Positions 6,708 to 25,190 of a stretch of DNA of 53,883 nt are shown here, piece by piece. The notes under the pieces are model-generated. The model searched no databases. It was not told the origin of the DNA and saw only the letters and a list, made by a program, of their open reading frames with translations. The position numbers and the translations under genes were made by a program. Source of the stretch: Deltaproteobacteria bacterium (GTDB lineage Bacteria; Desulfobacterota; BSN033; UBA1163); contig VGSD01000001.1 in the NCBI GenBank assembly GCA_016875155.1, positions 1 to 53,883 of the forward strand. The letters run 5' to 3'. Within the stretch, counting starts at the first letter, position 1; every line of letters starts with the position of its first letter.

Positions 6708-6708
6708 A

Positions 6709-7533
6709 TTAACCTCCAATCTTTATTTTTGAGCGACAGGGAGTTTCCTGGCTCTGTTCCCCCTTCATCCTTTTAAAAACTGGGAATAAAGGTTCAAGTC
6801 TGCCAGTAAGTACGCCTCCTTCCGGTCTCCCATGAAACTCAGAGGAGGTTCGGGTTAGCTGGATCCCTTTTTGCGATAGGGCTTTTTCCGCCTTCTGGAC
6901 CTCCCCCAGGCAAGAAAACCCCGAAAACCCGCTGAAATCCAATGAAATCTCTCCCCAGGCATTTGCCTCCATCCAGACGCAATACCTGTTCATACTGGCC
7001 TTCATGGCACCTCCGTTACGTTCGAGGCTATAGCCGAGGTCGGCGAGCGCATCTGAGGCGGTTGCTAATAGGGCCTCTTTTTCTAAATGGCAGAGCTCCT
7101 TCTGCACAACGGAGGCAAGGTCTTCTATTCTTTTTTGAATCTGGTGAAGAGAATCTTCAGCTTCCTCCCTTCTTGTCCTAAGGCCAACTTCCTTTACAAT
7201 CCCTACCTCCTCTCGTATGGCCTGCAGCTCATTAGCCCTTGTCTTTTCTGCATAGGCTTCGAAGATTGGAACCGAGCAAAAAGACCTAAGCATGGCGTCT
7301 GCGCGACTCCATCCCTTTTCTATGGGTAGATTCTCCTGGCGGCAAGGATCTGAGTTAGGGTATTTTTCAAGTTCTTGCTGCAGGGCAGCCTGGAGCTGTT
7401 CAACCCGATCTTTAGCTGTAGACCAAGCTTGTTGATCGTGGAATAAAATGCCTCTTTTTGCTAAATTTATTTGAATAATCTCCCCAGCTTTTCCGCTAAG
7501 AGCTCTCATCCTGTAGGAAACACTTTCACTCAT
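6709..7533 (-). CDS. coiled-coil protein of unknown function
   Basis: This is a 274-aa protein without a recognisable domain. Two long helical, heptad-like segments are visible, at about residues 30-55 and 95-160 (rich in E, R, L and Q). A C-terminal domain contains WGEISLDFSGFSG and a tail of basic residues. It has no signal peptide or membrane helix. Its start overlaps the stop of the upstream membrane-protein gene by 4 nt, and its stop nearly abuts the AAA+ ATPase start. This makes it a likely cytoplasmic adaptor between the two. Confidence 0.65.
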   Translation of the reverse strand: MSESVSYRMRALSGKAGEIIQINLAKRGILFHDQQAWSTAKDRVEQLQAALQQELEKYPNSDPCRQENLPIEKGWSRADAMLRSFCSVPIFEAYAEKTRANELQAIREEVGIVKEVGLRTRREEAEDSLHQIQKRIEDLASVVQKELCHLEKEALLATASDALADLGYSLERNGGAMKASMNRYCVWMEANAWGEISLDFSGFSGFSCLGEVQKAEKALSQKGIQLTRTSSEFHGRPEGGVLTGRLEPLFPVFKRMKGEQSQETPCRSKIKIGG

Positions 7534-8648: not shown

Positions 8649-9340
8649 CACTTTCCCTCCTTTGCAGGACGCCGGAGTGAAAATTGGCTGTCCGGTGGCA
8701 GAAAAATGACTTTTTGGGCTTTGCAGCTTTTCAAGGTTTGCGTCCAATACGATTTTAACTTCTGGGTTGAGGCCGCATTTTCTTTGGATTCGAATGCAAC
8801 CACCACGACTACAGATCCCAAGAGGTCCAGGGGAATCCGGCAACCGACATTGTCGTGCATGTCTGAAGCCAATATGATCATTCGCATGTCCGTCCCGTCT
8901 TCAATCTTGAATCGATCAGCGGCAGCGGCTAAAAAACCCCAAATATCCGTTTTGGGCGCTCTTACCGGGGAAAGATTAGACAATATGCTTATTGCCTCGG
9001 CTTGAACTGCCCTTGCCCGCTTTACCTGCCTTTCCCATTCGAGATGCGCCCTTCGGTCAAATTTGTTGGCGGGGGCGGGGGGGATGGGGGGCACTTTCAG
9101 TCGGAAGAGGGAACAATCGTCATTGTAGGATCTACCTGTAATTCTCCTTGCATAAAGGACGTCTCCTCCATCTAGGTCCCGGATCATCGACACTGCCAGG
9201 CTTAAGCCCCTCTCCCGCATTGTGAAGCTTCCGGTTTCATCGATACCAAAGACTATTATGCGGTTGGCAAGAACCGGCCCGGGGAAAAGTAGAAGCCCAA
9301 ACCCTCCGATAAGCAACATCAAAAAGAACCCAATATTCAT
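8648..9340 (-). CDS. secreted/anchored VWA-like protein
   Basis: This 230-aa protein begins with a hydrophobic signal or anchor segment (FFLMLLIGGFGLLLFPGPVLA). It is followed by IIVFGIDETGSF, which resembles a metal-ion-dependent adhesion site (DxSxS-like, here D-E-T-G-S). A second acidic loop, IILASDMHDN, corresponds to the distal MIDAS aspartate. The fold call rests on these two motifs and their spacing, so it is moderate. It starts after AAGGAGGG and its stop overlaps the next gene's start. VWA plus AAA+ pairs often work together in assembling complexes; here the two are separated by a membrane protein and a coiled-coil protein in one operon. Confidence 0.6.
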   Translation of the reverse strand: MNIGFFLMLLIGGFGLLLFPGPVLANRIIVFGIDETGSFTMRERGLSLAVSMIRDLDGGDVLYARRITGRSYNDDCSLFRLKVPPIPPAPANKFDRRAHLEWERQVKRARAVQAEAISILSNLSPVRAPKTDIWGFLAAAADRFKIEDGTDMRMIILASDMHDNVGCRIPLDLLGSVVVVVAFESKENAASTQKLKSYWTQTLKSCKAQKVIFLPPDSQFSLRRPAKEGK

Positions 9341-9351
9341 TGGAACCCTCC

Positions 9352-9855
9352 TTATTGCAGGGGAATAACTTTTTCAATCGCCTTTGGGGGAATTGGCTTT
9401 GTAGAGGTTATTTCGCCGACCCCAGGCGATCCTCCTAAGGATTTATTCATCCGAACCGGCTGTCCTTTGGGCAAATGTATGGTTTCTCGAACTTGGGGAG
9501 GTGTGGGCAGACCATATCTTCTTTGCGCCTTTTCCGGGCTTAACGGCCTGCCTCTGCTGGCCCGGGAGGTCATGTGGCTTTGGGGCATGATCCCCTTTCG
9601 GATTTCCTGCTTGGCCCTATCTTGGCTGGTATATCTGAAGACTCTGCGTTCGGCCGCAAGCGCGCGAACCTTTGTGGCCTTGTCGCGCATGAGGTCCCGG
9701 CGAAGAATTTCAGGATTCACCTTATGACCCGCCTTCAGGGAGGGACTCCTCATGGCCCGGGCAGCCGCCTTTCCCGCTACCCCGCCTTCCGCCTGCATGG
9801 GGAGAAAAGCGGTAGCGGCTGCCAATACCAGGGCGCCTATCAAGTAACGGATCAT
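9352..9855 (-). CDS. secreted basic protein of unknown function
   Basis: This 167-aa protein has a clear signal peptide (MIRYLIGALVLAAATAFLPMQA). The mature part is very basic, with many R and K. The C-terminal ~50 residues (LPKGQPVRMNKSLGGSPGVGEI, then Pro-rich) resemble the end of some secreted enzyme or toxin domains, but I would not assign one. AAAGGAGG precedes the ATG. It is cotranscribed with the VWA-like gene 11 bp downstream. Confidence 0.6.
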   Translation of the reverse strand: MIRYLIGALVLAAATAFLPMQAEGGVAGKAAARAMRSPSLKAGHKVNPEILRRDLMRDKATKVRALAAERRVFRYTSQDRAKQEIRKGIMPQSHMTSRASRGRPLSPEKAQRRYGLPTPPQVRETIHLPKGQPVRMNKSLGGSPGVGEITSTKPIPPKAIEKVIPLQ

Positions 9856-9873
9856 AGCTAACCTCCTTTAAAT

Positions 9874-10215
9874 TTATATTCTGCGCCCTGCCCGGGTTAG
9901 CAGGAACCAGGCGATGCGAAAGGGCGCACGGATCAGGTCACAGATAAGGAAGGAGACGACATTGGCGAAAATCCTTCCGCCCAAGAGAAGGCGGAAAATG
10001 GAAAAGACGAAAACAACAAACAGAAGCACGAGCATCCATCCCGGGAAGGCATCAAGGAGGGAGTCCATAAAAGGCCCCAGCAGAGCAATCAGAATTATAA
10101 TGAATACCAATTTCAGAGCCGCCTTCCGTAATCCAACGATCATCATGAAGCCGGCAATAATTAGGATAAGGAGCCAGGCTTCTTCCGGCATGAACCATAG
10201 CCACCCGCTGAGCAT
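9874..10215 (-). CDS. small inner-membrane protein with about three membrane segments
   Basis: This 113-aa, very hydrophobic protein has segments around residues 12-50, 58-78 and 82-105. It ends in an Arg-rich cytoplasmic tail (TRAGRRI), consistent with the positive-inside rule. AAGGAG lies upstream of the ATG. It is the first gene after promoter-like site 10365-10380 and 18 bp ahead of the secreted protein. No family recognised. Confidence 0.65.
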   Translation of the reverse strand: MLSGWLWFMPEEAWLLILIIAGFMMIVGLRKAALKLVFIIILIALLGPFMDSLLDAFPGWMLVLLFVVFVFSIFRLLLGGRIFANVVSFLICDLIRAPFRIAWFLLTRAGRRI

Positions 10216-10364
10216 TCTTTAATTCTCCTTCCTTTTATCGATTGCGGAGTTTCGCCTCCCAGGCAGCCCGACCGCACCCGGAAAGCCCTAAGTTTGAAGA
10301 AGAGATTTTCAAAATTCCTTCGCCCAGCAATCGCGCAGCGAATGCAGGAATCCATTTAAAAGGG

Positions 10365-10380
10365 AGCAACCTGCTTACCA
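10365..10380 (-). promoter_or_regulatory. -24/-12 (sigma-54-type) promoter-like site
   Basis: On the minus strand the site reads TGGTAAGCAGGTTGCT, with GG and GC elements at the sigma-54 spacing. It lies in an untranslated gap about 150 nt ahead of the small membrane protein gene and resembles four other sites in the window. An in-frame ATG overlaps it, but the resulting 48-codon frame has no ribosome binding site and I do not call it a gene. Confidence 0.55.
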
Positions 10381-10421
10381 TTAGGCGGAGGAGGGATACT
10401 CGGAAGGCCGAAAATTCTCTG

Positions 10422-10733
10422 TCAATGGATTCCCCTTAGCAGTGGGTTAAGGCTTGCCCATTTGCCTTTTTTCTTTATCTGGCGGAAGGATCTTCGGTTC
10501 TTGTAAGCGGTAATGATAACTCCGTCCGCCGGCCTTACCAAAAGAGTGGCCCCCTCCAACTTTGATAACCTATCCCTGCGCCGGAACTCATCGGGAATAT
10601 CCTTTCTCCTTAAGGTGTAAAAAGTGACCCCCGTGCGATGGATTTTGCAACCGAGTCTCATCACCATTTCGATATCCGAAACCTTTATCCCCCTTTGCGC
10701 AAATCTTCTTTCCGCATGATCGGTTACTAGCAT
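10422..10733 (-). CDS. DUF4258-like small protein
   Basis: This protein of 103 aa begins MLVTDHAERRFAQRGI, the His/Arg signature seen at the start of DUF4258 proteins (small basic proteins often near toxin or mobile genes). It continues with a beta-rich part containing TFYTLRRKDIP and LLVRPADGVIITAYK. The ATG at 10733 is chosen because AGGAGG sits five bases upstream; an ATG 129 nt earlier would add a basic, low-complexity leader crossing the promoter-like site at 10772. It heads the envelope module. Confidence 0.6.
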   Translation of the reverse strand: MLVTDHAERRFAQRGIKVSDIEMVMRLGCKIHRTGVTFYTLRRKDIPDEFRRRDRLSKLEGATLLVRPADGVIITAYKNRRSFRQIKKKGKWASLNPLLRGIH

Positions 10734-10771
10734 GGAAGCCTCCTTTGGTTGGACTTTGCTATGAAGCCTTA

Positions 10772-10787
10772 AGCAACTGATTTGCCC
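10772..10787 (-). promoter_or_regulatory. -24/-12 (sigma-54-type) promoter-like site
   Basis: The minus strand reads GGGCAAATCAGTTGCT. The predicted transcript start is about 10761, giving a leader of about 28 nt that includes the AGGAGG of the DUF4258-like gene. It shares GTTGCT and spacing with the sites at 10365, 13524 and 44035. Confidence 0.6.
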
Positions 10788-10889
10788 CAGCCGTCCTTTG
10801 GTTCGCTTGGGTGATTTTTGCGGTTTTCTCCCTGATGAACGAAGTTTACTAAGCACCTCCATTTATCCAGCACGAACCTCCTTAAAAAC

Positions 10890-10926
10890 AAAAAGACCGG
10901 AATGGACGGGCCTCCCGGTCTTTTTT
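10890..10926 (-). terminator. intrinsic terminator, symmetric
   Basis: AAAAAGACCGG and CCGGTCTTTTT flank a 14-nt loop, giving a GC stem with a T-run on either strand. On the minus strand it would end any transcript entering from 11.1 kb and so separates the candidate small RNA from the DUF4258-headed operon. Confidence 0.75.
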
Positions 10927-10971
10927 ATAGTTGATAGGCTTTCATCTTGGCTCCTGCCTTGCACACCTAGG

Positions 10972-11005
10972 GGCAGGATTCGTTCGCTCATCTCTGGTCG
11001 GTGTC
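10972..11005. repeat. diverged direct repeat, copy A
   Basis: The plus strand begins GGCAGGATTCGTTCGCTC and ends GGTGTC. It resembles 11353-11387 at roughly three quarters of positions with one indel. It falls inside the candidate small RNA. Confidence 0.45.
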
Positions 11006-11133
11006 ACCAAAGCCCATCAAGGCTTCTGTCCCCAGGCTTCCCCACTGCGCCCGGATAGCCCGAAGCTGCCAGGCCATTCAACTACTAAACCTCCATTTGG
11101 ACCCTCCTTGCTGGGAATTTCATGTTATCCTAA

Positions 11134-11149
11134 GGCAACTCGATCACCA
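11134..11149 (-). promoter_or_regulatory. -24/-12 (sigma-54-type) promoter-like site
   Basis: The minus strand reads TGGTGATCGAGTTGCC, with GG and GC correctly spaced. It is followed by no gene but by a terminator about 210 nt on, suggesting a non-coding transcript. Confidence 0.5.
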
Positions 11150-11352
11150 ATTTCATTTGTGACGGAAGCGAGATATCTTCTATAAAAAGGTAGAGAAAAT
11201 GGGGAAATGATAAGGAATGAGCAGGATATTAATCGATTTTGAGCTCCCCAAGCATCTGGAAAGGGGAGATGGATTAGGGTTCCTATCGGGAAAAATTCGG
11301 CGAATAATATTCTATAAAATCATCCCTCCTAGCTGTCCCCAGCACATGCTAA

Positions 11353-11387
11353 GGCAGGATTTGTTTGACTCCTCTTTTGCCGGTGTC
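11353..11387. repeat. diverged direct repeat, copy B
   Basis: This is the second copy of the 10972-11005 element, in the same orientation, next to a GCTG/CAGC hairpin. Apart from this repeat, 11150-11624 shows no gene I can support. Confidence 0.45.
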
Positions 11388-11624
11388 GCTTTACTACCCA
11401 AACATCAGTGTTGACTGCTGGTCCCCCAATTGCTATAGAGGCCCGCAAAAGTAATGCAATGGAGCCCAACCTTTTTGGCCCGTATTTATGGACTCTTACC
11501 GTTAGCTGTCTGTTGCATTATTTATATTGCTCCTTATAAAAGTTCGATTTTAAGCGTAACATAAAAGGCCATCCTTATGGATGTCCTCTCATCCTCAAAA
11601 TACCGGCTTGAATATGGTTATCTG

Positions 11625-11888
11625 TTATTTGGCTAACTTTCGGTAAATATCACATAACCGATTGTTTGCACGGACTCTTAGAATCCTTTTCCACTGCTCC
11701 TCGCGTTTTGATAATGGCAAAACATACTCCCCAAATCTGGGTGTGGCTTGAAATTGTCCTTCTTGATCTTTCACAAAATATTCAGTGCTACTTCTTAGGT
11801 AACAACCCTCTTCGAGTTCCATAAGTAGTTTTTTGGTAAGTTTTCTCACTTCGGCCACTCGAGAAATTGAAATCCGCTCTTTGTCCAT
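11625..11888 (-). CDS. 87-aa protein of unknown function
   Basis: The start MDKERISISRVAEVRK is supported by AGGAGG eight bases upstream. A longer frame to 11999 exists but has no such signal. The protein is basic and soluble, with a helical N-terminus and a C-terminal RVRANNRLCDIYRKL segment. No family recognised. It stands alone between two gene-poor stretches downstream of the polymerase cluster. Confidence 0.55.
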   Translation of the reverse strand: MDKERISISRVAEVRKLTKKLLMELEEGCYLRSSTEYFVKDQEGQFQATPRFGEYVLPLSKREEQWKRILRVRANNRLCDIYRKLAK

Positions 11889-12021
11889 TTTAAATCCTCC
11901 TGCAACATTTCTCGGGATGAAATCCTCCCAACCTAAATTGTGCTTTACAGATTTTAATTCATCATTGCGGTAATCATTTCTTTTCCGTTTTAGAAGCAAA
12001 ACCCTACGATCCCATCCCTCC

Positions 12022-12055
12022 CCTGTGTTTCATTTAGTAATCAAGTAAACACAGG
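12022..12055. repeat. perfect 9-bp inverted repeat
   Basis: CCTGTGTTT and AAACACAGG are separated by 16 nt. It lies just downstream of the broken gene at 12075. It could be an operator, a weak hairpin or an element boundary; there is no T-run. Confidence 0.45.
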
Positions 12056-12074
12056 AACTTCGAGAAAGATGTGA

Positions 12075-12374
12075 CTATAAAATCCCTTTGCTATCAAGAA
12101 TCTGAAAAGTGGTTCTTCGATTTCTGGCCCACCAAGGAAAGCAAAAAGCACTTTCAGTTGGGTCAAATATTGCTCTGCACCACCCTTCGTGAAGCCGCAA
12201 GACCCATTGTCCTTTGACTCTCAGAAATTCCGCACCCGGAAAACTTCCTTCAATCTCTGCGCTAAATCCTGTTTCAAGAATAATTCGGTCTGACCCCCCT
12301 CCTTGCTCAATGAGGATAGCCTATTCTAATCCGCCAATTTCAGGTTTTATGATTGGATGCATTCCTCCCTTCAT
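12075..12374 (-). pseudogene. small gene interrupted by an in-frame TAG
   Basis: The reading frame starts at ATG 12374 (or 12362) and meets TAG at 12321-12323. It then continues open for 81 codons with protein-like sequence (for example FLRVKGQWVLRLHEGWCRAIF) to a second TAG at 12075. The part after the first stop has strand-consistent composition and is Trp-rich. Either the gene is broken, the true start lies after the amber codon (an unusual ATT follows GGAGGGGGG), or the amber is suppressed. No family recognised. Confidence 0.45.
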
Positions 12375-12396
12375 AGAATTTCAAGACCTGGATCTG

Positions 12397-13479
12397 CTAA
12401 TTTAGCGGTATAAGCCGGTCTTCCCACCTGACATATGGGGCGTGGCGCACCTGCGAATCAATATGGGCATCGATCAAGGATCCTGCCCATGATTCAAGTG
12501 CACACCTTACAGAACCTGGCACTTGGGGGTGTTGGATCATTTGGGTGACATCGTTAAAAATGTGGAAATATGTGCTCGTTTCACTGTAAGGATTTTCCTC
12601 CGCCATTGGTAGATGATTTTTTAGGCGCCTATGAATGAAATTATAAATGTTCTTCCGATGCGCTCCGATTTGTCTCGCCGCCATCCAATGAATAGCATTG
12701 ATGGCTAAACCAACTTCGGTACTATCTAATGTTATTTTCCGCATGCGATCTCGCACCTCGACAAGCGTTATCGGAGGCCTAAAGGCATCTGAGTAATTTT
12801 TTAGCATACTCCTAATTGTGGAACCATTTTTGCAGATTAGCCTGTATAAGAATGCAATCACTTGGGGATAGCTATTAGGGGAATAAATATCGCAGTTGCT
12901 AAATTCGATGCCAAACTGAAAATAGTCGCCGGGAACAGGTTCTTCTTTAAAAGTACTCAATCTTCTAAGATGGAGCGAGTATCCGATAAGCCTTATCTCA
13001 AGGAGACTATCTTTTTCCGGGAAAGCCTGAGAGTAAGATTCGAGGAACGCGTGATGATAAATGGGTAAGGCTTTTGGGGGTGTTATTGCTTCCAAGGCCT
13101 GGTTTGTTTCATCGATCCAGCAGAGTATTTTCGTTTTTTTCTTTTTCTCCAGCAAATTATTCAGGATAGGGATTACATAATTTTTCGGGCAGATATACTG
13201 AATGAAACTTTCAGGGACATTCAAATTCCCTAATAGGTCCTCCAACCCTTTGGAGGAAAAATTATAACGATCATCTCCCATTTCAATTTTTACGTTGTTC
13301 CCATCCTCGATAAACCTGCAATTTCCAAGCATTAGGGGGAGGTTTCGGCGAGGCCGCCGAGCAAAATAGTCTATTGCGGCATTTATGGATTCAAACTTTT
13401 CATCGCGCTTTCTGTAATCCACCACAATGGGAATATTCTGATTTTTGGTTTTCTTAATGTATTTCTTGGTTGTTGCCAT
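12397..13479 (-). CDS. DUF932-like protein
   Basis: This 360-aa protein has a highly charged N-terminus. Its centre, FGIEFSNCDIYSPNSYPQVIAFLYRLICKNGS, matches the pattern of DUF932 phage/plasmid proteins (a '...NSE.G...........RLVC.NG' segment). The LLGNLNVPESFIQYICP segment corresponds to the family's early conserved helix. The function of DUF932 is not known; members are common on mobile elements. It starts 55 bp after the sigma-54-like gene with GAGGAG upstream and appears to have its own -24/-12-type promoter at 13524-13539. Confidence 0.6.
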   Translation of the reverse strand: MATTKKYIKKTKNQNIPIVVDYRKRDEKFESINAAIDYFARRPRRNLPLMLGNCRFIEDGNNVKIEMGDDRYNFSSKGLEDLLGNLNVPESFIQYICPKNYVIPILNNLLEKKKKTKILCWIDETNQALEAITPPKALPIYHHAFLESYSQAFPEKDSLLEIRLIGYSLHLRRLSTFKEEPVPGDYFQFGIEFSNCDIYSPNSYPQVIAFLYRLICKNGSTIRSMLKNYSDAFRPPITLVEVRDRMRKITLDSTEVGLAINAIHWMAARQIGAHRKNIYNFIHRRLKNHLPMAEENPYSETSTYFHIFNDVTQMIQHPQVPGSVRCALESWAGSLIDAHIDSQVRHAPYVRWEDRLIPLN

Positions 13480-13523
13480 AATATTGCTCCTCTTTTCTCA
13501 TCTTGATTGTCCTATGAGCTATG

Positions 13524-13539
13524 AGCAACTAAATTACCA
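13524..13539 (-). promoter_or_regulatory. -24/-12 (sigma-54-type) promoter-like site overlapping a stop codon
   Basis: The minus strand reads TGGTAATTTAGTTGCT. Its TGG and TAA are the last Trp codon and stop of the sigma-54-like gene. The predicted start is near 13513, about 34 nt ahead of the DUF932-like ATG. It could make that gene a target of the factor encoded just upstream. Confidence 0.6.
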
Positions 13540-14844
13540 ATTTAATTCTTTCTTTATCTCCTCCACAAGGCTAATTAGCGTCTGGTGATCATTCGAAGAG
13601 CGTTCTCCCGTTCCTCCCGCTATTCGGAGGTCATTCCAACGTTCCTTCGGGTATATTTTTCGGATTTTAGGCCATAATGTCTTGCGAATCTGCTGTTCAT
13701 TGACTTCACTCTTCTTCCACAATTGCTGTAAAATAAATGTCTGATCAGGGGCTGTTAAAGCGGGCCTTCCTCCACGTATGACATGGATCTCAAAAGCCTT
13801 CATCAAGATATCTTGTTTCTCGTTAAGCTTGGCGGCGACTTCTCCAAAAAAGATCTTCAAGGGCCAAGTAGATCGGCTAAAGGGTGCCCTAATCCATTTA
13901 TTATTGATTACTCTTGTGGTCCTGGTTTTTTCTATCTTTAGCCCATTTCTATTGGCAAATTGCGTAAATGCACTCTGGTTCTTTGGAACCAGTCTTGTGA
14001 ACGCAACGTCTTCATCTTTTGCCTTTAGAAACTCGCTCTGCTCCTGAATCAGGAATTTCGCCATGACCCTTAATGCCCTGCGCCTTGCAGCAATTAATTG
14101 CGTTAATTGAGGACCGGTCACTGAAAAACGGCTGGACAAGGGAAAATGAACTTTTTTCGCCACGTATTGGCTATGGATGTGAAGTCTATCGAGGAAGCCA
14201 AGATTAATTCGATAATCAATTTGACCATCTTCCTTTAAGAAAAAGATGAGATCCACTTCCGAACGAGTGCTTAGATCGATCTCGCGCTCCGGATTCATTT
14301 TGCCAGTAAATTGCTCAAAGATATTAGAAAACCACGCCCTTAGCTCTGGCTCCATCTCGGTGAAGGGCGGAAGTCGATCGGGAGCTTGCCATTTCTCAAG
14401 ATTCTTTTCAATTTTCTCTCTAAGTTTATAGTCTTGAGATGGCCAAAAACGTTCTTCTAATTTCCTAAAGGCGTAGGTGAAGAAAGATTCACAGGCGTCA
14501 GGCAGATGGGGCTCAGCATCATTTGAATTTCCGGTTTCAATATCGTCTAGTTTCATGCAGGGCCGATCATAACAGTCAACCACATCCTTCTCTTCTTCCC
14601 CCTGAACCTTTGTTCCAACCCATCTTTTTCCCGGAGTTTCCCCTATTATCTCAACGAATGGCAGAGCCCAAAGGGCGGACTCATAATTAATTTCAATTTC
14701 CTGAAGAGATGCTTCCAATATGGCACTCTGGGCTAACGTATAACCTCTTTTTTTCTTCTTTTTGGGGGGCGGGCCCCCTGGCTTTTTTATCGGCCATCTA
14801 TCTTCTTTTAATTTATTATTTCTTTTAACATCAGGGCTTCCCAT
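13534..14844 (-). CDS. divergent sigma-54 (RpoN)-like factor
   Basis: This 436-aa protein matches RpoN region by region, though weakly in pairwise identity. Residues about 37-66 (ILEASLQEIEINYESALWAL) fit region I, the Leu/Gln helix that contacts the AAA+ activator. Residues 195-230 (EVDLIFFLKEDGQIDYRINL...LHIHSQY) fit the 'PDv.V....g.y.v.lN....P.L.in..Y' part of the core-binding domain. Residues 253-336 follow the family's 'R..TL.rV...Iv..Q..FF' to 'HeSTvSRvt.nKy...PrG...LKyFF' run with matching spacing (here EKTRTTRVINNKWIR and WPLKIFF). The classical RpoN box (ARRTVAKYRE) is not recognisable, so -24 recognition may differ. A Lys/Pro-rich leader (18-33) is extra. It starts 16 bp after the fused polymerase gene. 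Confidence 0.8.
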   Translation of the reverse strand: MGSPDVKRNNKLKEDRWPIKKPGGPPPKKKKKRGYTLAQSAILEASLQEIEINYESALWALPFVEIIGETPGKRWVGTKVQGEEEKDVVDCYDRPCMKLDDIETGNSNDAEPHLPDACESFFTYAFRKLEERFWPSQDYKLREKIEKNLEKWQAPDRLPPFTEMEPELRAWFSNIFEQFTGKMNPEREIDLSTRSEVDLIFFLKEDGQIDYRINLGFLDRLHIHSQYVAKKVHFPLSSRFSVTGPQLTQLIAARRRALRVMAKFLIQEQSEFLKAKDEDVAFTRLVPKNQSAFTQFANRNGLKIEKTRTTRVINNKWIRAPFSRSTWPLKIFFGEVAAKLNEKQDILMKAFEIHVIRGGRPALTAPDQTFILQQLWKKSEVNEQQIRKTLWPKIRKIYPKERWNDLRIAGGTGERSSNDHQTLISLVEEIKKELNW

Positions 14845-14860
14845 GTTCCCCCCCCGCTTG

Positions 14861-17800
14861 CTACTGATATCGTATTTGACCGGCGATAATCTTTTCCTTC
14901 AATCCCTTGAGATAGTCAGTCTCCTGGTATAGGGCTGCCTCGGCCAGATTCTGTGCCAACCTCCTGAAACTCAAACGGCTGAGAAAACCTTCGCCGGCTA
15001 GAGCCGCCTGAAGCAATGTGCGCCATTCGATTTTTGGAGCTAGATGTACCATGGAGCGCAAAACAACCTCGAAATGGTGATCCGCAACTCGACTGTTGGC
15101 GTTGTAAATCTTTTGTAGCACATGGAGTAGGTACTCTGTAGCTGCAAGCGGGCTCACTTTCTGATTAAAAAGCTTTTTTATCGAAATCTTTTGATTGTTC
15201 TGCAACGTCCTGGTAAAGAAAACTCGCTGCCCCATTTGAACGGAGAAAACCTCGTTTTCCCTAACCACACTCTTTATCTTGTGTTCATCAAGTTTGTAAA
15301 CCGTTGTGCCATCTGTTTGCGATTCCTCTACGAAATCGATCTTCCCATCCTTACGAAGCCTTTCCTCCATTTCCAGAGACCATCCGGCCACGGGATCAAT
15401 ATCCACCAATGGGAGACGCTGCTTTTTTCCTTCTCCAGTAATTTCCAGCCACCTAAATCCACTGGGGCTCTTGATGATCTGCGCATCGCCCGTGATGGAT
15501 GACTTGACAGGTTCTTCGATCGTGCCCATGAAGAAGGCTCTTCTAGCCACTTGCAGCCCTTGGCTGATGCCCTGTCCGGCTATGCCTCCGGTATGAAAAG
15601 TTCTTAGGGTTAGCTGGGTTCCAGGCTCACCAATCGACTGCGCGCCGATAATTCCAGCGGGGTAACCGAAGGAAGGTTCTTTACCAGTAGACAAATCTAA
15701 ACCGTAACATTTCTGGCAAATCCTCCAAACCTGGGGGATCTGGATTTTTTCTTTTCCCTTCCAAGCCTTGAACTTTATTTGGGCTCTAAGCTCATCAAGA
15801 CGAAATTCCTGCAGCGATTCATCCATCTTGAGCTGATTTAACCGGACCTTTCCGATTTCAAAGCGATCGTTTTCAGTCAGGATTGTTCCTGCCTGGATGG
15901 GCGGCATTCCTGGAAGCTGAATATCTTCCCCCAGCAAAGCATCCGTCGGCCAGTCCAACAGTGAATATTCTTCTTCTCGGAAGACCTCAATTGCCGGAAT
16001 ATGATGCCTGGCTATTTTTAAAAGGTTCGCCTGATCAAGAGGTGTTCCCAGAATTAAACCAAGTTCGTTAATTGGTGAGGCGAGGATTCTTCCATTCCAT
16101 TGATTAAGAAAGCTTTTCCAAAGCACGGAATTTTGGTCCAGAGCCTGGCACGTGATTGGAGAACGGATCTTTACCCACGTTACCCCTGAGTCACTCAATT
16201 TCTTGGCCATCTCCGGTCCGATCGTAGTATTTTTGGGGATTTTTTCACCCGCCAAGGTGATATCATCGGCCAAATAACGCCCCTCGAGCCGCTGGCCGAG
16301 AGCAATAGTGCCCCCATCGGGGTCTTCAAAAGTGGTTATCCACAGCCCATTTTCCGTCTCACAATCTTCTTCCACGATATAATCCCCATGGGTCGCCTGA
16401 ACTAAAATGTTTGTGAGGTCCCCTGCTGGCCCTGTCATTAACCCTTTATCGCTGAGGCCATGCCGGGCTCCATGGCAAGAGACGAAATACTCAAGGGGAG
16501 ACATCCCCCGAATCAAATTAGATAAAATGGGATATGAAGTATATCGCCCTCCAGGCCTCAACATAATTCCCCGCATCCCCGCAATCTGATTCAATTCAAC
16601 TTTCGCAGCCCGGGATTTAAGTAGTACATCCAGCGCACTTTTCGACGGAATCCTAGCCTCCAAAAGGTCGATCACTTCCTTGGTCCGATCGATCCAAAAT
16701 TGGACTCTTTCCTCTTCGAAAGGCAAGAGGGAGGAATTGTATCTGTCTATGTGGGTCAAAATAAGGTCTTGCAAATCTTCATCTATAATAAAATCCTCAA
16801 GGCTCAGGGTAAAACCACAACGTTTCAAAATATCTCGGAATTCTTTTGACTTTTGCTGTACAATCTTCCGAAACTCTTCTGGCCCCTTTTTATACGCTTC
16901 ATTGAAGGTTTCATAGAGGCTTGGTTGTATTGATCCCCGCCCCGAAAGATAATGGGCTAGGGTCCAATCTTTACCATGATCAACTAGGAGACGCCCATGC
17001 CCCGGCGAACGAAGGGCGTGTGATGGCAGCATCCTTCTAGCTTCACTCATTGAATTTTCCAGCATCGGGACGTGAACCGCCATGGTGTCACCATCAAAGT
17101 CGGCATTAAACGGCGAGCAGATAGACGGATTCAAGTGCAGTACGTCATCCTGTGGATAAAATTTTGGGATGAAGGCCAGGATGCTGAGCCGATGGAGGCT
17201 GGGAGCCCGATTAAGTAACACATAATGTTCACCGGCAATTTCGTCTAACCAAGCCCGAACTTTCGCTTCATTTTCACTCTCACTGATGAAGGTTTTGGCC
17301 ATTTCGATACGAACGGAATCAGGTATTCTTCTGCTCTTAGGAGGATTATATGGGTTGCCATCGAGGTCCAGGATTTCTTCATCTGTAGGGATTGTGGTAA
17401 GACACTTGGCAATTAGCCCATCTCGAAATAGGACTTTCCCCATCCTATACGGTAAACCGACCTGATCGAGCCCAAGTTCAGGGTCAGGAACAATAACTGC
17501 CCTGCCTGAGAAATCGACCCTCTTGCCCAGTAAATGCTCCCGGAATATGCTCTCCTTGCCAGAGTCATGGCCTGCAAGGCAGGATAGAACACTTTCCATC
17601 AACCTTCCAGAGGAGGTTCGGATGGGGTCTTCCAGGATATCCGGGATCTTGTCATTGACCAAAAATCCATGCACCAGGTATGCAAGTTTCTTTTCCTCAC
17701 TGCCAACGATCCATTCGGCAAAAGACGGTAGTGCCTTATTCGCAATTTTCTTTTTAAATTCCTTAATTGCTTCATTCTTCAGGACGATGCGCTCATAATG

Positions 17801-20800
17801 AACGTTCAAGTCATTTTCATATCTTGGATGATGGGTCTTGAAGTGTCGGCCCCTTCTCTCATATCGGAGGTTTTTCGGTAAGACATAGAGGTTTCCGATA
17901 AAGAATGCTTCTTTTGGATGATAACCTTTTTCCAGAAGGGTTTTAACCAGCTCTAACTGTCTCCCCGTACCCTGTTGCTTTTGGACATTTTCCAGCCGGT
18001 TTTTCATTTTGCTTAAATCCATCAATCTGAAATGTTCAAATAGTTCTTCGGGGTCCAGACTATATTTTGATGTCGGATCAAGTACCCATTTGAATTTCAT
18101 CATTTCATTCCTTGGAAAATTAGTGGCAACCTGTTCGGCCAGAGCATGGCGGTCTACCTTCTCTGGTTTTGCGACCGTTTCCAGCCAATCGATGAGGTCA
18201 TCAACGGTTTGGAGTCGTGAACGGTCCTCCCACGCTCTTTTCCAGAATTCTTCCCATTTAATGACCTTTTTAGGAAATAGGTTGATTACAACTCGTTGAA
18301 AGGCTGTCTCTAATTCGTCGGCAATACGCTTGTCCTGGTCATCGTATGTTACCTCTAAGGCCGAACGAAATAAGAAACCCTCCCAGTCCAGGAGGACTTC
18401 AAGACAACGACGGAACAAGGGATTATCGATCGGTGTGCATAGTTCGATAATTGAAGAGGATTCCTTAGCCTGCTCTCGAAGGGTCTTCTTTGGCGAGAAA
18501 GGGTCGCCAAGCATATCCGACCAAAGGCCACTCTCATGAATACCACCGGTCCTGGATACGACGCTTTCTCTCGCCCACTTTTTCCTCTCCTGATCTGAGG
18601 CAATCCTGATCTTAATTCCAGAAAGTCTGGGCCAACTAGGCCCGCCCAACTTAACAAGGGAAACGGCTTTTCCCCACTCATCGATGCCTTGTACGTCCAG
18701 CCCCAGGGCGCGGCAATAGAAAACGAGGCCTTTAAAAGCGCGATGTTCCCGTTGGTGGGCCTCCAAGGGAGCATAGGAAAGTTGATATTGGCCGGAACCA
18801 AGCTTCGTGACACTGAAACCAAATTGGTAAGCAATACGTCGCAATCCATTTTCATCCGGGCAGGTTATCGTAAGCTCTTCATTCTCTTTAATCGTCCATC
18901 CCTTTCCATCTGCGTGCTTCTTGATATGTATCAGGGCTTCCTCCTTTGATCTTTCAATACCGAGGATGTACTCCGAAAGCATCGCTCGAAGATGCTCTGC
19001 GTCGGACTTCATGGATAGTAATTCGTCCAGAATATGCCAGGCGCCATGACCCATTAACGCCCAGACTTCCATTTCCCCGAGACGCTGCGCCTTCTTTCCC
19101 CGTGCCCTCTGGTGGGCCCAAATTTCAAGGATATCAGGATGGCCTGGTAGAGAGGGAATGGCCGGTTGTCCATACGTAGGGTCCAAATAGGCCTCATCCC
19201 GGACCTTCAACTTTTTCTCCGCCAGATGGTCAAGTTTTAAGAAATATTGATATCCAACAGTCATTGGCCGATGTTGACTTTCATGCTGACCAATTGGGAT
19301 TTCCTCCCCATCCTTCCAGAAAAAGAGAAGTTGCTGGTGGCTCAATTGATTTTCCGCCAATCGCTCTTTGATTTTCTCCCACGTCCAGTCTGTGGAGAAA
19401 GGGGCCACTTTTATTTCTTCTTTTTTATAAGCCGCTAGCCAGCCCAGGGCGGTTTCATAAAGCTGTCCCATATTCATACGGCCCGTAATGGTTAAGGGAT
19501 TAATTATGATGTCTAGGTGGGTGTGTGCATATGGAACTTGGCAATTTTGATCCTCGCAGCGGTTTATTTTCGTCTTGAAGTAAGGCATTTCCCTTTCTTC
19601 AATGATCTGCGAGACAACGCCCTTGTTGCCATGACGGCCTGTGAGCTTATCTCCCTTGCGCAAGGAATGTTCCTTTTCGATGAGGATACGTACACGCCTT
19701 GAGACCGGTCGCGGTAAATCCCGTTCAACCCATGACACCTCCTTTACCACCCCGAAGCTGTCATCTGGCGAAAAGAGGGAATCGTTGGCCATGTTACTTA
19801 GATTTTCTTTCCATTGCCTGCGCCCCCTCCGCTTAAGATACGTAGCCATTAACATCTGCGTGCCATATTCTTCGTCTATTAAAACAGGCCTTTCCCTTTC
19901 TGCGAGCGGCCTCAATTTGCTCACTAGCAGCGTGCCCTTCTTGATGGAAGTTCCCACCTTGATAACGCCGTCAGGGTCTAGGAGATCTCTCTCTTCTTCC
20001 CGGATATGTTCGTTTTCCCTGCTAATTTTTTCCCCATGATATTCATCAACAATGATTTCTTCCCCTTCCACATGAGTCAGAATCTTTTCACGAGCAAGCC
20101 GCCCGTTTACCACGATGGCATCTTCATAGGTCAAGAAATCCCATGGGAGGTATCCCACAAGAAGATTTTTTCCAAAGCAAAACCGGCCATTGACGATAAA
20201 GGGACAATCTTTGCCGAATTGGGAAGCAATGATATTTTCAAAGTCTGTTTGAATCATAGGCGGTTCCGGACGGTTCAGAGGCAAAGCCTGCTTTATCATA
20301 TTAGCGCCCATGAGGGCCCGGTTAGCGTCATTATGTTGTATAAAGGGAATCAGTGCCGCTGCGTAACCCAGAAAACTGGTAGGCTTCAGGGTTTCATGGG
20401 TATATTGTTGATCCGTCGAAAGGAGGGTCATTTCCTCTTTATCTGTCTTAGCAAATCTTAACATTTCGAAAAAGCCGCAACCGGCAAAGAGCATTAAACT
20501 TTTTTCCTCTTCATAGGGGTCAAGAAAAACCTTTTTTCCAGTCTCTTTGTCTCTTAAACATACCTCAATCAATCCCTGGTCGTTAATCCTAACGTCCTGA
20601 GCGAGATGAACATTAAATCCTAAATCCTCCCCCTGAGGGCTTTCAACTGGGCATAGCCGACCGAAATCCGTCGGGTGAACGTCGCGTTTATCGAGCAGCA
20701 GAGCCTTTTCGGGGAATCCATCAGGGCCGCGCATGGTTAACCGCCGCTTCTGACTGATCTCAGCGATTGGATTACAGGTATCAAGAAGCTGAAAAAGCTC

Positions 20801-21784
20801 AGACCCTTTATAAAATTGATCGATCCAGGGCTGAAACATGTAGTGGGGGATAAAATCATCAACATGATCGTCGGTAAACTTCAAATTTTTCACTCCCCCC
20901 ATCCACTCTCCTCGAGCCAGCCATTGCTCCTGGACGTATTTATGCATATTTAGAACGGCATCGTTAAGGATTTCAAATAGAAAATCGCCGATTCGTTTCA
21001 CCTTTCGGTTTTTTAGGGAACGATCATCGGTTTGGGGGATCTTTCCATCATAAAAGAGATCCATGATGGCCTTAAGCTCTTCCATTTTGAGCTTACTGTT
21101 TGTCTCGTCGATTTTTTCAGTCAAGCCCCGGAGTAGGTCGGCCATCTGTCTTTTGCCAAGAAAAGACATGTCGCAATGAATGGAGTCCACTATTTCCTTC
21201 ATTTGGTCGCGAGAAATCTCTTTATCATGGCCGATTTTTCCTGAAAACAGCTGAAGGTCTCCTTCGGGGCGGATAACCACTTTCAATACAATTCTCTTGC
21301 CAATTGCCGGCAATATTTGACAAGTGATCACCTTTCGCTCTTCCGAATCCTTTTCGCTCAGGTAGATTCCTGGAGAGGGAGCAAGCTGCATTGTCAAAGT
21401 GAACCGATTGGCAACTTTTTTCCGATTCGACTCTATTATGAATTCACTGTCCTTGGTAGGGGCGGGAATACTTGCCATTAAGCGTTGGAATTTAAATGAG
21501 CCGTTGGTTACAAATTTTCCCTTTATCGAAAAGGTAAACAAGAGGTTCCGGAAATAAGTCCAATTCGCCTTAATACAATCTTCTGGACTACCGGAAGCTC
21601 CTTCAAGCTCCCACTCCGATATGCACAGCTGATGATCATCATCAAGGGGAATGCAACCAAGCTCACCAATGATACGCGGGCATGAGAACTCAGAGGGAGC
21701 TTCCAGCTGCGAGAAGAATCGAATAAAAGAATCATACTGCATGGAAAGCCAATCAGGCTTTTTGGCAATACCTGTAGGACTCAT
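14861..21784 (-). CDS. fused RNA polymerase beta-beta' subunit, divergent second copy
   Basis: A single 2307-aa chain carries both catalytic subunits. Beta part (about 1-1040): rif region 329-355; DVHPTDFGRLCPVESPQG 368-385; GDKLTGRHGNKG 711-722 with both catalytic-centre lysines; RMNMGQLYE 769-777; GEMEVWAL 903-910. Beta' part (from about 1056, GIKIRIAS): clamp helices 1255-1310; LLGKRVDFSGRAVI 1418-1431; catalytic NADFDGD 1560-1566; bridge helix about 1768-1800; trigger loop GEPGTQLTLRTFHTGG 2052-2067 (R2061, H2064). Zinc finger 1 is missing; zinc finger 2 keeps C1808, C1879, C2023 and C2026 with a large insertion. The chain is about 400 residues shorter than typical beta plus beta'. AGGAGATCCT precedes the ATG. 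All key catalytic residues are present, so it is probably active. No alpha or omega gene is nearby. Confidence 0.95.
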   Translation of the reverse strand: MSPTGIAKKPDWLSMQYDSFIRFFSQLEAPSEFSCPRIIGELGCIPLDDDHQLCISEWELEGASGSPEDCIKANWTYFRNLLFTFSIKGKFVTNGSFKFQRLMASIPAPTKDSEFIIESNRKKVANRFTLTMQLAPSPGIYLSEKDSEERKVITCQILPAIGKRIVLKVVIRPEGDLQLFSGKIGHDKEISRDQMKEIVDSIHCDMSFLGKRQMADLLRGLTEKIDETNSKLKMEELKAIMDLFYDGKIPQTDDRSLKNRKVKRIGDFLFEILNDAVLNMHKYVQEQWLARGEWMGGVKNLKFTDDHVDDFIPHYMFQPWIDQFYKGSELFQLLDTCNPIAEISQKRRLTMRGPDGFPEKALLLDKRDVHPTDFGRLCPVESPQGEDLGFNVHLAQDVRINDQGLIEVCLRDKETGKKVFLDPYEEEKSLMLFAGCGFFEMLRFAKTDKEEMTLLSTDQQYTHETLKPTSFLGYAAALIPFIQHNDANRALMGANMIKQALPLNRPEPPMIQTDFENIIASQFGKDCPFIVNGRFCFGKNLLVGYLPWDFLTYEDAIVVNGRLAREKILTHVEGEEIIVDEYHGEKISRENEHIREEERDLLDPDGVIKVGTSIKKGTLLVSKLRPLAERERPVLIDEEYGTQMLMATYLKRRGRRQWKENLSNMANDSLFSPDDSFGVVKEVSWVERDLPRPVSRRVRILIEKEHSLRKGDKLTGRHGNKGVVSQIIEEREMPYFKTKINRCEDQNCQVPYAHTHLDIIINPLTITGRMNMGQLYETALGWLAAYKKEEIKVAPFSTDWTWEKIKERLAENQLSHQQLLFFWKDGEEIPIGQHESQHRPMTVGYQYFLKLDHLAEKKLKVRDEAYLDPTYGQPAIPSLPGHPDILEIWAHQRARGKKAQRLGEMEVWALMGHGAWHILDELLSMKSDAEHLRAMLSEYILGIERSKEEALIHIKKHADGKGWTIKENEELTITCPDENGLRRIAYQFGFSVTKLGSGQYQLSYAPLEAHQREHRAFKGLVFYCRALGLDVQGIDEWGKAVSLVKLGGPSWPRLSGIKIRIASDQERKKWARESVVSRTGGIHESGLWSDMLGDPFSPKKTLREQAKESSSIIELCTPIDNPLFRRCLEVLLDWEGFLFRSALEVTYDDQDKRIADELETAFQRVVINLFPKKVIKWEEFWKRAWEDRSRLQTVDDLIDWLETVAKPEKVDRHALAEQVATNFPRNEMMKFKWVLDPTSKYSLDPEELFEHFRLMDLSKMKNRLENVQKQQGTGRQLELVKTLLEKGYHPKEAFFIGNLYVLPKNLRYERRGRHFKTHHPRYENDLNVHYERIVLKNEAIKEFKKKIANKALPSFAEWIVGSEEKKLAYLVHGFLVNDKIPDILEDPIRTSSGRLMESVLSCLAGHDSGKESIFREHLLGKRVDFSGRAVIVPDPELGLDQVGLPYRMGKVLFRDGLIAKCLTTIPTDEEILDLDGNPYNPPKSRRIPDSVRIEMAKTFISESENEAKVRAWLDEIAGEHYVLLNRAPSLHRLSILAFIPKFYPQDDVLHLNPSICSPFNADFDGDTMAVHVPMLENSMSEARRMLPSHALRSPGHGRLLVDHGKDWTLAHYLSGRGSIQPSLYETFNEAYKKGPEEFRKIVQQKSKEFRDILKRCGFTLSLEDFIIDEDLQDLILTHIDRYNSSLLPFEEERVQFWIDRTKEVIDLLEARIPSKSALDVLLKSRAAKVELNQIAGMRGIMLRPGGRYTSYPILSNLIRGMSPLEYFVSCHGARHGLSDKGLMTGPAGDLTNILVQATHGDYIVEEDCETENGLWITTFEDPDGGTIALGQRLEGRYLADDITLAGEKIPKNTTIGPEMAKKLSDSGVTWVKIRSPITCQALDQNSVLWKSFLNQWNGRILASPINELGLILGTPLDQANLLKIARHHIPAIEVFREEEYSLLDWPTDALLGEDIQLPGMPPIQAGTILTENDRFEIGKVRLNQLKMDESLQEFRLDELRAQIKFKAWKGKEKIQIPQVWRICQKCYGLDLSTGKEPSFGYPAGIIGAQSIGEPGTQLTLRTFHTGGIAGQGISQGLQVARRAFFMGTIEEPVKSSITGDAQIIKSPSGFRWLEITGEGKKQRLPLVDIDPVAGWSLEMEERLRKDGKIDFVEESQTDGTTVYKLDEHKIKSVVRENEVFSVQMGQRVFFTRTLQNNQKISIKKLFNQKVSPLAATEYLLHVLQKIYNANSRVADHHFEVVLRSMVHLAPKIEWRTLLQAALAGEGFLSRLSFRRLAQNLAEAALYQETDYLKGLKEKIIAGQIRYQ

Positions 21785-23724: not shown

Positions 23725-25190
23725 TGCTTATATCTTCCTGTTAATCGGATCTGGCATTCAGATAGGATTCGCCGCATGTTATTGTACGTCGTGTCAAGAA
23801 GGGTCGCCATTTCCCTGGCAGTTATACGACGCTGATGCTCGCGCCGCCACCGCGATTCGATCAGCAGCAGGATCTCCCGCCGGATTTGGCTCTTAGCAGC
23901 AAAGGTATCCTTCAAATCTTGCCATTTGATTTTTCCGAGAAAAATCTGATCGATTAAGGCCGGAACATCAGGAAAGACAGGACGATTAGGCTTGTCATTT
24001 TGAGTAAGATCTGGAAAATTGATCGTCTGGAGGATATTTTCTTCGGCTAATGCTACAGCCCGGTGAATCACATTTTCCAATTCCCGGATATTACCGGGCC
24101 AGGTATACCCCACCAATAGGGACTTTACATCATCACGTAGAATGGGAAGTATTTTCTTTCCCGATTCGAGATTTGCTTTTTCCACGAAGTATTTAAAAAG
24201 CAGAGGGATATCTTCCTTCCTTTCTCTCAGAGGGGGCACATGAATGGAAACGACATTCAATCGAAAAAAGAGATCTTCTCGGAAACGACTTTCCTGGATC
24301 ATTTGTTTCAAATCCTTATTCGTAGCCGCTATGATCCGTGCACTTGAAATGATACTTTGATGACCACCGACACGTTCGAATTTCCTTTCTTGGAGAAATC
24401 GGAGCAGTTTGACCTGTACTTCGGGGGACATATCGGCGATTTCATCCAGAAAGAGGGTCCCTCGGTCACCGACCTCGAATTTTCCCTTTTTAGTAACGAT
24501 GGCTCCGGTGAAGGCGCCTCTCTCGTGGCCGAACAGTTCACTTTCCAGGAGATCTTTCGGAATGGCTGCACAAACAATGGTTTGAAAGAGTTGATCCCTT
24601 CGCTTGCTAAGTCCGTGTATGGCACGAGCAACGAGCTCCTTGCCTGTCCCCGATTCACCGGTTATTAGAATGGTTACATCTTGATCTGCCACTTTATTAA
24701 TCATCTCAGCGACCATTTTCATACCTGGGGTTTCGCCCACTACAAATCCGTATTTTTCAAGATTAGCCTTAATGGCAGATTCGGGGCTTTGGGTTAACCT
24801 ATTGGATCGATATTTTTCGATCAACTGGTCAAGCCTATGGGCCAAATCCGAAAAATCACCATCGGTAATAGCCGCTTTTGCATACCGATAATCCGCCAGC
24901 GCATAATCTTCTGGCTGAAACTCGGCCTTATCCATGGTGCCCGTGATCATCATAACTGGTAAATCTGAAAAAAGAGCTTTAATCTTCTTAAGAGTTGGTT
25001 TTCCCAAATTGCCACCAGGGAATCGAATGTCCAGCATCACCACATCCGGCTGATAGGCCTCAATGATCTCAACCGCTTTGGAAGGGTCGGATTCACATTT
25101 AATTTCAAAACCATAGGAACTCAATTCTTTTCGAAAAATATCTTCCCATAACTCCAGCTCATCATCGATAAAGAGGACACGCTTACTCAC
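23721..25190 (-). CDS. NtrC-type sigma-54 activator (receiver + AAA+ + HTH)
   Basis: This 489-aa bacterial enhancer-binding protein consists of three parts. The receiver is about 1-125 (acidic pair D9/D10, D54 in VVMLDIRFPG). The sigma-54 interaction AAA+ domain is about 148-385, with Walker A GESGTGKE 178-185, the GAFTGA loop 225-230 that touches sigma-54, and Walker B TLFLDE 245-250. A C-terminal DNA-binding helix-turn-helix (about 450-489, ITAREMATLLDTTYNNMRRIL) is not the usual Fis type. An intact GAFTGA strongly predicts a sigma-54 partner, and a divergent one is encoded nine kilobases downstream in the same run. Start and stop overlap neighbours by 8 and 4 nt. Confidence 0.93.
   Translation of the reverse strand: MSKRVLFIDDELELWEDIFRKELSSYGFEIKCESDPSKAVEIIEAYQPDVVMLDIRFPGGNLGKPTLKKIKALFSDLPVMMITGTMDKAEFQPEDYALADYRYAKAAITDGDFSDLAHRLDQLIEKYRSNRLTQSPESAIKANLEKYGFVVGETPGMKMVAEMINKVADQDVTILITGESGTGKELVARAIHGLSKRRDQLFQTIVCAAIPKDLLESELFGHERGAFTGAIVTKKGKFEVGDRGTLFLDEIADMSPEVQVKLLRFLQERKFERVGGHQSIISSARIIAATNKDLKQMIQESRFREDLFFRLNVVSIHVPPLRERKEDIPLLFKYFVEKANLESGKKILPILRDDVKSLLVGYTWPGNIRELENVIHRAVALAEENILQTINFPDLTQNDKPNRPVFPDVPALIDQIFLGKIKWQDLKDTFAAKSQIRREILLLIESRWRREHQRRITAREMATLLDTTYNNMRRILSECQIRLTGRYKQ

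Follow-up and report, generated by a model that had tools for sequence, protein, structure and literature searches.

A probable second core RNA polymerase in bacteria

Can a bacterium possess, besides its housekeeping RNA polymerase (RNAP), a second core enzyme with a factor of its own for starting transcription? This question is raised by a gene located at 14861..21784 on the minus strand of contig VGSD01000001.1 from a Deltaproteobacteria bacterium (assembly GCA_016875155.1), of which a stretch of 53,883 nucleotides (nt), hereafter referred to as the window, was analysed. The gene encodes P0001, a protein of 2307 amino acids (aa) in which the beta and beta' subunits of RNAP are fused. We observed its catalytic motifs, its placement in a separate clade, the coexistence of a clade member with rpoBC in one metagenome-assembled genome (MAG), and a gene pair that is repeated between loci. 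P0001 is the fused core of a lineage of its own and probably a second, dedicated transcription enzyme, which is likely to be started by the sigma-54-type factor P0122 encoded directly downstream.

A trimmed polymerase chain with its catalytic motifs

The reading frame of P0001 starts with ATG and contains no internal stops. In a Pfam scan, the beta part matched Rpb2_3, Rpb2_6 and Rpb2_7 at residues 332-931 and the beta' part matched Rpb1_2 and Rpb1_5 at residues 1420-2247, all above the curated cut-offs. The scan gave no match for Rpb2_1, Rpb2_2, Rpb2_45, Rpb1_3 and Rpb1_4, domains that presumably correspond to the protrusion, lobe and funnel. Among 21 relatives of P0001, Rpb1_3 was listed for P0016 alone, and none of the five domains is listed for the rest. 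The match to the fused-RNAP model of NCBIfam has an E-value of 1.6e-153, which makes a chance match negligible. The best NCBIfam models are those of housekeeping beta-beta' fusions, yet P0001 reaches only about one tenth of their cut-offs (NF007172 and NF011417; 512.7 versus 5372 and 498.8 versus 4632).

The motif columns were compared one by one with those of L171, the housekeeping enzyme of a relative, which served as the reference. P0001 has kept the ED pair (residues 554-555), both lysines of the beta motif GDKLTGRHGNKG (residues 711-722; 19619..19654, minus strand, as for all motifs of this gene), the catalytic NADFDGD of beta' (residues 1560-1566; 17087..17107), LNRAPSLHR, the Zn2 cysteines and the bridge helix (region of residues ~1769-1800; 16385..16480), as well as the Arg and His of the trigger loop TLRTFHTGG (residues 2059-2067; 15584..15610). 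Most catalytic residues are conserved in at least 90% of the rows of the clade. By its lysines, NADFDGD, bridge helix and trigger loop, P0001 is a predicted RNAP of the two-barrel multisubunit type. The Pfam matches and the motif columns thus confirm the initial annotation, made from the sequence alone, in which beta was followed by beta' in one chain with these same motifs.

The junction of the two parts, read between flanking motifs at residues 1016-1030 and 1056-1065, lies at residues ~1035-1055 (18620..18682), an approximate boundary that corrects the earlier placement of the end of beta at 1040 and the start of beta' at about 1056. The earlier figure of about 400 residues by which the chain is shorter than the known fusions had to be corrected as well. 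Compared with a full beta plus beta', more than 400 residues are missing: P0001 is 531 residues shorter than the sum of beta and beta' (1368+1470) in G001, the MAG of a clade member, and about 575 residues shorter than named Helicobacter fusions (2881-2885 aa). The N-terminal zinc ribbon of beta' is missing from P0001, and the more distant fused enzyme L118 retains one (CxC...CxxC). At the rifampicin-pocket position, P0001 has a Gln (SQKRR) versus THKRR in a solved beta chain; we take the histidine of this pocket to be residue 526 of E. coli. With Gln in place of this histidine, rifamycins may inhibit the enzyme less strongly. In the report on Nonomuraea, the substitution H526N is given a central role in the second rpoB (PMC5431353).

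A rare clade apart from housekeeping and phage enzymes

Among the best 120 of 7888 matches in a protein search, 21 relatives are 35-48% identical to P0001 and score 1078-2027 bits, and the next match falls to 531 bits. Together with P0001 they form a rare clade of 22 proteins, which are 1845-2485 aa long except for P0017 (1518 aa, on a short contig). The relatives carry a generic RNAP name only and no source name. In A2, 20 of the 22 segments were used, P0003 and P0017 being omitted.

The phylogenetic tree was built from 77 rows and 1329 columns, with P0017 omitted from the start and two short phage rows removed thereafter (from 79 to 77). Housekeeping enzymes were represented by L171, by 12 loci out of the 79 in L082-L160 and by 13 of the 99 housekeeping-like proteins P0023-P0121. 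The viral enzymes comprised 17 of the 19 viral loci with a single chain, together with L169 (16 of these rows were kept), L002, which was treated apart, and 10 split viral loci. The 21 rows of the clade are located on one side of a branch with a support of 100 in the Shimodaira-Hasegawa-like approximate likelihood ratio test (SH-aLRT). Housekeeping (99), phage-fused (100) and split viral enzymes (100) likewise form groups of their own, and the deepest branching order has a support of 6. P0001 is not a member of the phage-fused group, since the clade and the phage-fused enzymes are two groups with an SH-aLRT of 100 each, although the free tree joins them at a support of 6-7. L002 falls outside the clade and nearer to the housekeeping side (support 92).

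Approximately unbiased (AU) tests were performed with 74 rows, L177, L117 and VS_L019 being omitted as well. A placement of P0018, the clade member of G001, beside the housekeeping enzyme from the same MAG was rejected (p-AU 0.0026, log-likelihood 1132 worse), as were placements of the clade with the G001 housekeeping enzyme (p-AU 2e-46) and with the Helicobacter/Wolbachia fusions (p-AU 1.5e-8). The G001 housekeeping enzyme itself falls among the housekeeping enzymes. The check proposed at the outset, a tree of beta and beta', places the clade apart from the housekeeping enzymes and supports the initial interpretation. A grouping of the clade with the phage-fused rows was neither rejected nor recovered with support (7). 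L118 as the sister of the clade, a position suggested by a common insertion with HTH and by a common partner gene, was not rejected either (p-AU 0.37), and the tree does not show it.

The mark of the clade is a Cys-Cys-His-His insertion of 15 residues in beta, between GRHGNKG and the NPL motif, which is predicted to form a metal-binding knuckle (C743-x4-C748-x5-H754-x-H756; 19517..19558, minus strand). In the clade alignment, all 22 rows have the residues C743, C748, H754 and H756, and the insertion is present in all 21 clade rows that were read. It is missing from 13/13 housekeeping, 13/13 housekeeping-like single-chain and 14/14 readable phage-fused rows, and also from L002 and L177; the search pattern read neither L117 and L118 nor the split viral rows, and it missed 4 of the 18 rows of phage-fused enzymes. 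L117 and L118 have an insertion of 12 residues, as counted by eye, at the same site and with HTH.

Coexistence with the housekeeping enzyme in a relative

A family-specific scan of a genome collection identified L081, the locus of P0018, in the uncultured Desulfobacteraceae MAG G001. It is 57% identical over a probe of 109 residues and is the sole clade member among the matches listed; the scan was swamped by housekeeping enzymes and gives no count of clade members. In G001, PF00562 is matched both by a canonical rpoB, with 459 bits, and by the fused gene, with 168 bits. The canonical contig encodes an rpoB product of 1368 aa and an rpoC product of 1470 aa and is distinct from the contig of the fused gene, so that the assignment of both to the same organism rests on binning. 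The fused gene of L081 is located beside genes that we read as lon and aspS-like. The earlier proposal that the enzyme is additional to rpoB and rpoC is supported by the MAG of this clade member. Across overlapping samples of Desulfobacterota, with 395 genomes at the level of the phylum and 389 each for the order and the class, a clade member was found in G001 alone.

More distant fused enzymes were found in G768 (L117) and G769 (L118), each of these genomes also having a canonical rpoB, and G790 contains an additional, partial fused enzyme (L188). A third and different fused RNAP, L177, is encoded in G769 (contig C266, 3-5021, minus strand), where it is cut by the contig end. It is 44% identical to L118 over a probe, and near it lies a gene for 892 aa in which we read a resemblance to an HD domain and a STAND-type NTPase. 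L002 is a fused RNAP of 2196 aa (9167-15754) on the 37-kb viral-collection contig IMGVR_UViG_3300018427_002048, near genes for a sigma-70 region-2 protein, a NYN domain and, by our reading, a PP2C-like protein.

The fused enzyme L169 in the bacterial genome record G293 (contig C8, 9430-15894, 2154 aa), close to a terminase gpA-type gene, was rejected as a clade member despite an E-value of 1.9e-17, since its best stretches are 22-35% identical and the longest one 25%; it belongs to the phage-fused clade. In twelve records of Clostridioides difficile that are listed as plasmids (96-150 kb, e.g. NZ_CP149721.1), the matching sequences are 29-31% identical to P0001, and rpoB and rpoC are annotated in 11 of these 12. 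Records of the phage collection with housekeeping-like rpoBC (e.g. AGRM01000005.1 and OR846602.1) are probably bacterial sequence.

A sigma-54-type gene directly downstream

The gene for P0122, a divergent sigma-54-type factor of 436 aa, is located 16 nt downstream of the polymerase gene (13534..14844, minus strand). The initial annotation was right in placing the polymerase among signalling genes, but it had overlooked this one. P0122 barely passes the Pfam cut-off for Sigma54_DBD (E-value 7.8e-5, 22.9 versus 22.8 bits), and sigma-54 chains are the first 25 fold matches of its structural model, the matches beginning at residue 30. Region I, which mediates the response to the activator, is weakly aligned in P0122 and mostly missing from the L081 factor.

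Two loci of the clade (the window and L081) and two of its more distant relatives (L118 and L197) have the 3' end of the polymerase gene on the contig. In all four a sigma-54-type gene is directly adjacent, and none of the 158 other RNAP loci that were fetched shows the same pairing. L197 represents the C-terminal half of the polymerase in the genome of L117, on a separate contig. L177, L117 and L188 were counted neither for nor against the pairing, because the 3' ends of their polymerase genes lie off the contigs. L002, where the 3' end of the fused gene is likewise present, has no sigma-54-type neighbour and is located outside the clade in the tree, and the gene following the fused enzyme of G293 shows no relation to P0122. 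The L118 partner reaches 82.1 bits for Sigma54_DBD, and in the factors of both L118 and L197 the DNA-binding domain of sigma-54 is almost complete and ends in a sequence resembling an RpoN box. In G768 and G769 the sigma-54-type gene is a second copy besides RpoN, and in G790 a 5-kb contig that lacks a polymerase carries an extra sigma-54-type gene next to that of a PAS kinase. Among 7999 candidates in the protein database, no sigma-54-type relative of P0122 was found but itself. The separate lineage and the repeated partner gene support the earlier suggestion of a dedicated additional enzyme; the dedicated role itself is something that we infer, and it is strengthened by the recurrence of the partner.

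Signalling and defence genes in the window

The gene order in the window is that of a kinase-fold protein, receivers, a GAFTGA activator and then the polymerase/factor pair, all on the minus strand. P0131 (29776..33858, 1360 aa) is a predicted sensor histidine kinase with an H-box-like SHNVGSH and an N-box-like ENFIRNSTKYG. It matches no Pfam family above cut-off, and a model of its residues 600-1060 (predicted local distance difference test score, pLDDT, of 70.5) matches histidine kinases, so that both fold and boxes are those of a sensor kinase. Its family comprises 19 relatives in the protein database, two of which have methyltransferase domains (P0144 and P0149). P0129 (26524..28752) is a Clp-type AAA+ protein (AAA_2, E-value 1.7e-31) with a receiver-like C terminus (NtrX match at residues 573-652, E-value 8.8e-6), the AAA+ part of which matches the PADLOC candidate families PDC-M37B (86 bits) and DolB. 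The other proteins of the window operon gave weak or no matches to the PADLOC anti-phage models.

P0125 (23721..25190) is an activator of the NtrC class, with a receiver (E-value 4.9e-10), a sigma-54 AAA+ domain (Sigma54_activat, E-value 1.2e-68, 230.4 versus 20.2 bits) and GAFTGA at residues 225-230 (24501..24518). P0124 (21801..23255) combines, according to Pfam, a response-regulator receiver with a C-terminal KH domain; the RNDCVH between them presumably recalls the motif of HEPN RNases, and P0124 is a possible RNA-directed output of the same signal path. Interspersed are the unknown proteins P0130 (28968..29789, 273 aa), P0128 (25911..26537, 208 aa), P0127 (25183..25914, 243 aa) and P0126 (23239..23724, 161 aa), the last of which has no Pfam family and is, by our reading, a candidate degenerate receiver. 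The series ends, after a gap of 54 nt, with the gene for an unknown protein of 360 aa that has no Pfam or PADLOC match (12397..13479).

Genes for type I restriction, for HepT and PIN and for an IetA-like ATPase are also present in the window. The latter, an AAA ATPase at 4947-6719 that matches PADLOC IetA with 75 bits, is followed by unknown genes, with which it possibly forms a defence system to the left of the polymerase operon. The input set of L081 differs and consists of a TerY-P-like kinase/phosphatase triad. The GC content of its polymerase (39%), factor (35%) and triad (41%) contrasts with the 53% of the lon-aspS flank. A gene that we read as resembling a tyrosine recombinase is located near the copy of G768. 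The polymerase module thus appears to have been acquired horizontally, and it is probably mobile.

Weighing of the explanations

Several observations weigh against a second enzyme with a sigma-54-type factor of its own. The presence of housekeeping rpoBC in the window organism is deduced from the MAG of one clade member, and the scan of 39 window proteins revealed neither an alpha nor an omega subunit. The sigma-54 signal of P0122 is marginal. Moreover, P0122 misses the cut-off of TIGR02395, the equivalog model of full-length RpoN (15.1 versus 277.35 bits), and should therefore be regarded as a sigma-54-type relative rather than RpoN itself. An RpoN box, which serves recognition of the -24 element, is not recognisable in P0122 because the profile match ends at position 99 of 160, and the L081 factor has no Sigma54_DBD match. 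In profile-profile comparisons, the clade factors reached an E-value of only 0.033 (probability 1.5) against canonical RpoN and 0.22 against the L118-type factors. The P0122 model has a pLDDT of 53.7, the alignment behind it includes 4 canonical RpoN rows, and its best Foldseek match has an E-value of 5.8e-4 and a TM score of 0.23. The window shows no enrichment of promoters with the sigma-54 consensus (9 versus 5.6 expected with 2 mismatches, 56 versus 57 with 3). The activator is located beside the polymerase in the window only and not in the fetched flanks of L081, L118, L197 and L198. Lastly, the contigs of the P0131 relatives match no clade polymerase contig in listed length, a weak test in which the longest contig per protein was compared, and the kinase module is therefore separable from the polymerase.

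Some of these points would fit a genuine second enzyme whose neighbour is a DNA-binding regulator, initiation depending on a host sigma or another factor. Such an arrangement could account for the divergence of P0122 and for P0132, which has no Sigma54_DBD match, and L002 offers the example of a fused enzyme near a sigma-70 region-2 protein in a record without sigma-54. We nevertheless consider it improbable in view of the direct adjacency in four of four loci, the well-preserved DNA-binding domains of the L118 and L197 copies, and the GAFTGA activator within the window operon. Somewhat less improbable, but still unlikely, is a polymerase derived from a phage or another element that is kept by a mobile island and mainly transcribes the genes of that island rather than a host regulon. 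Fused phage RNAPs do exist, with a single-chain open reading frame in 19 of 80 viral loci (the best 80 of 211), and G293 holds one near a terminase gene. The low GC content of the L081 module, the recombinase-like gene beside the G768 copy and the restriction, IetA-like and HepT genes of the window point in the same direction. This view is opposed by the separation of the clade from the phage-fused enzymes, even though the free tree joins the two at a support of 6-7. Also, four pattern scans of limited reach found neither a clade member nor a sigma-54-type partner in viral contigs, and the 39 window proteins scanned with Pfam included none with a structural role in phages.

Two further explanations can be given very little credence. 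Natural housekeeping beta-beta' fusions of Helicobacter and Wolbachia provide a precedent for a housekeeping enzyme of an odd lineage, but the tree and AU tests set the clade apart, a clade member coexists with rpoBC in G001, and P0001 falls far short of the cut-off of the housekeeping fusion model. Equally implausible is a catalytically dead or regulatory polymerase-like protein. The alternate beta' of Beggiatoaceae, encoded immediately upstream of a sensor kinase gene, is reported to lack most catalytic residues (PMC4679880), but those of P0001 are present from the ED pair and both lysines to NADFDGD, the Zn2 cysteines and the Arg and His of the trigger loop.

We thus favour a second, dedicated enzyme, the polymerase activity, promoters and regulon of which we infer from sequence. 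Together with alpha and omega of the host or, like jumbo-phage enzymes, without alpha, the fused chain would bind the sigma-54-type protein, and both would wait as a closed complex at promoters of their own. The sensor kinase would phosphorylate receivers encoded in the window, upon which the NtrC-class activator would remodel the factor with ATP, and the regulon would then be transcribed by the fused enzyme instead of the housekeeping enzyme. The output is likely to be a stress or anti-phage response, because the module appears to be horizontally acquired and sits among defence genes; this is the least certain step. A bolder idea, which we regard as rather doubtful, is that of a complete, signal-gated second transcription system, made up of a one-chain RNAP with its own sigma-54-class factor and activator. 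It would continue to transcribe a regulon for defence or stress once the main polymerase is disabled, because its core differs where phage inhibitors and antibiotics bind, and it would parallel in bacteria the way in which eukaryotes divide transcription among several polymerases.

Comparison with known systems

The textbook view is that of one bacterial core RNAP on which sigma factors are exchanged. The Helicobacter and Wolbachia fusions resemble P0001 in being single chains with beta before beta' and the same catalytic motifs, but they are housekeeping enzymes that group with the housekeeping RNAPs, and the clade is shorter and separate. Phage multisubunit-type RNAPs (crAss-like fused enzymes, jumbo-phage AR9, mReC and YonO) are extra RNAPs like those of the clade, and some are fused. 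The AR9 enzyme is reported to require its own promoter-recognition subunit, gp226 (PMC7598289, PMC7481178). This subunit has no sequence similarity to sigma factors and is viral, unlike L081, which is found in a bacterial MAG with a sigma-54-type gene.

Other departures from one RNAP per bacterium, comparable to the clade in this respect, are the duplicated rpoB of Nonomuraea with its mutant-type paralogue (PMC5431353) and the alternate beta' of Beggiatoaceae, the gene of which adjoins that of a sensor kinase (PMC4679880). Each concerns one subunit, and the accessible parts of these papers name no second complete core or dedicated sigma factor. The RpoN/NtrC-class system has the DNA-binding domain, the fold and the GAFTGA activator in common with the window. 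RpoN serves the common core, whereas P0122, besides its great divergence, is linked by gene order to a core of its own. Searches of open PMC papers (subscription journals being outside this scope) listed no second core RNAP of cells that has a sigma-54 factor to itself, and the sigma-54-type gene directly downstream of a fused polymerase is a new observation here. If our reading is correct, promoters may also be chosen by exchange of the whole enzyme. The system would then be a testable one for the question why sigma-54 needs an ATP-driven activator, and it bears on how far a core can be trimmed and on back-up polymerases against phages that shut off the main one.
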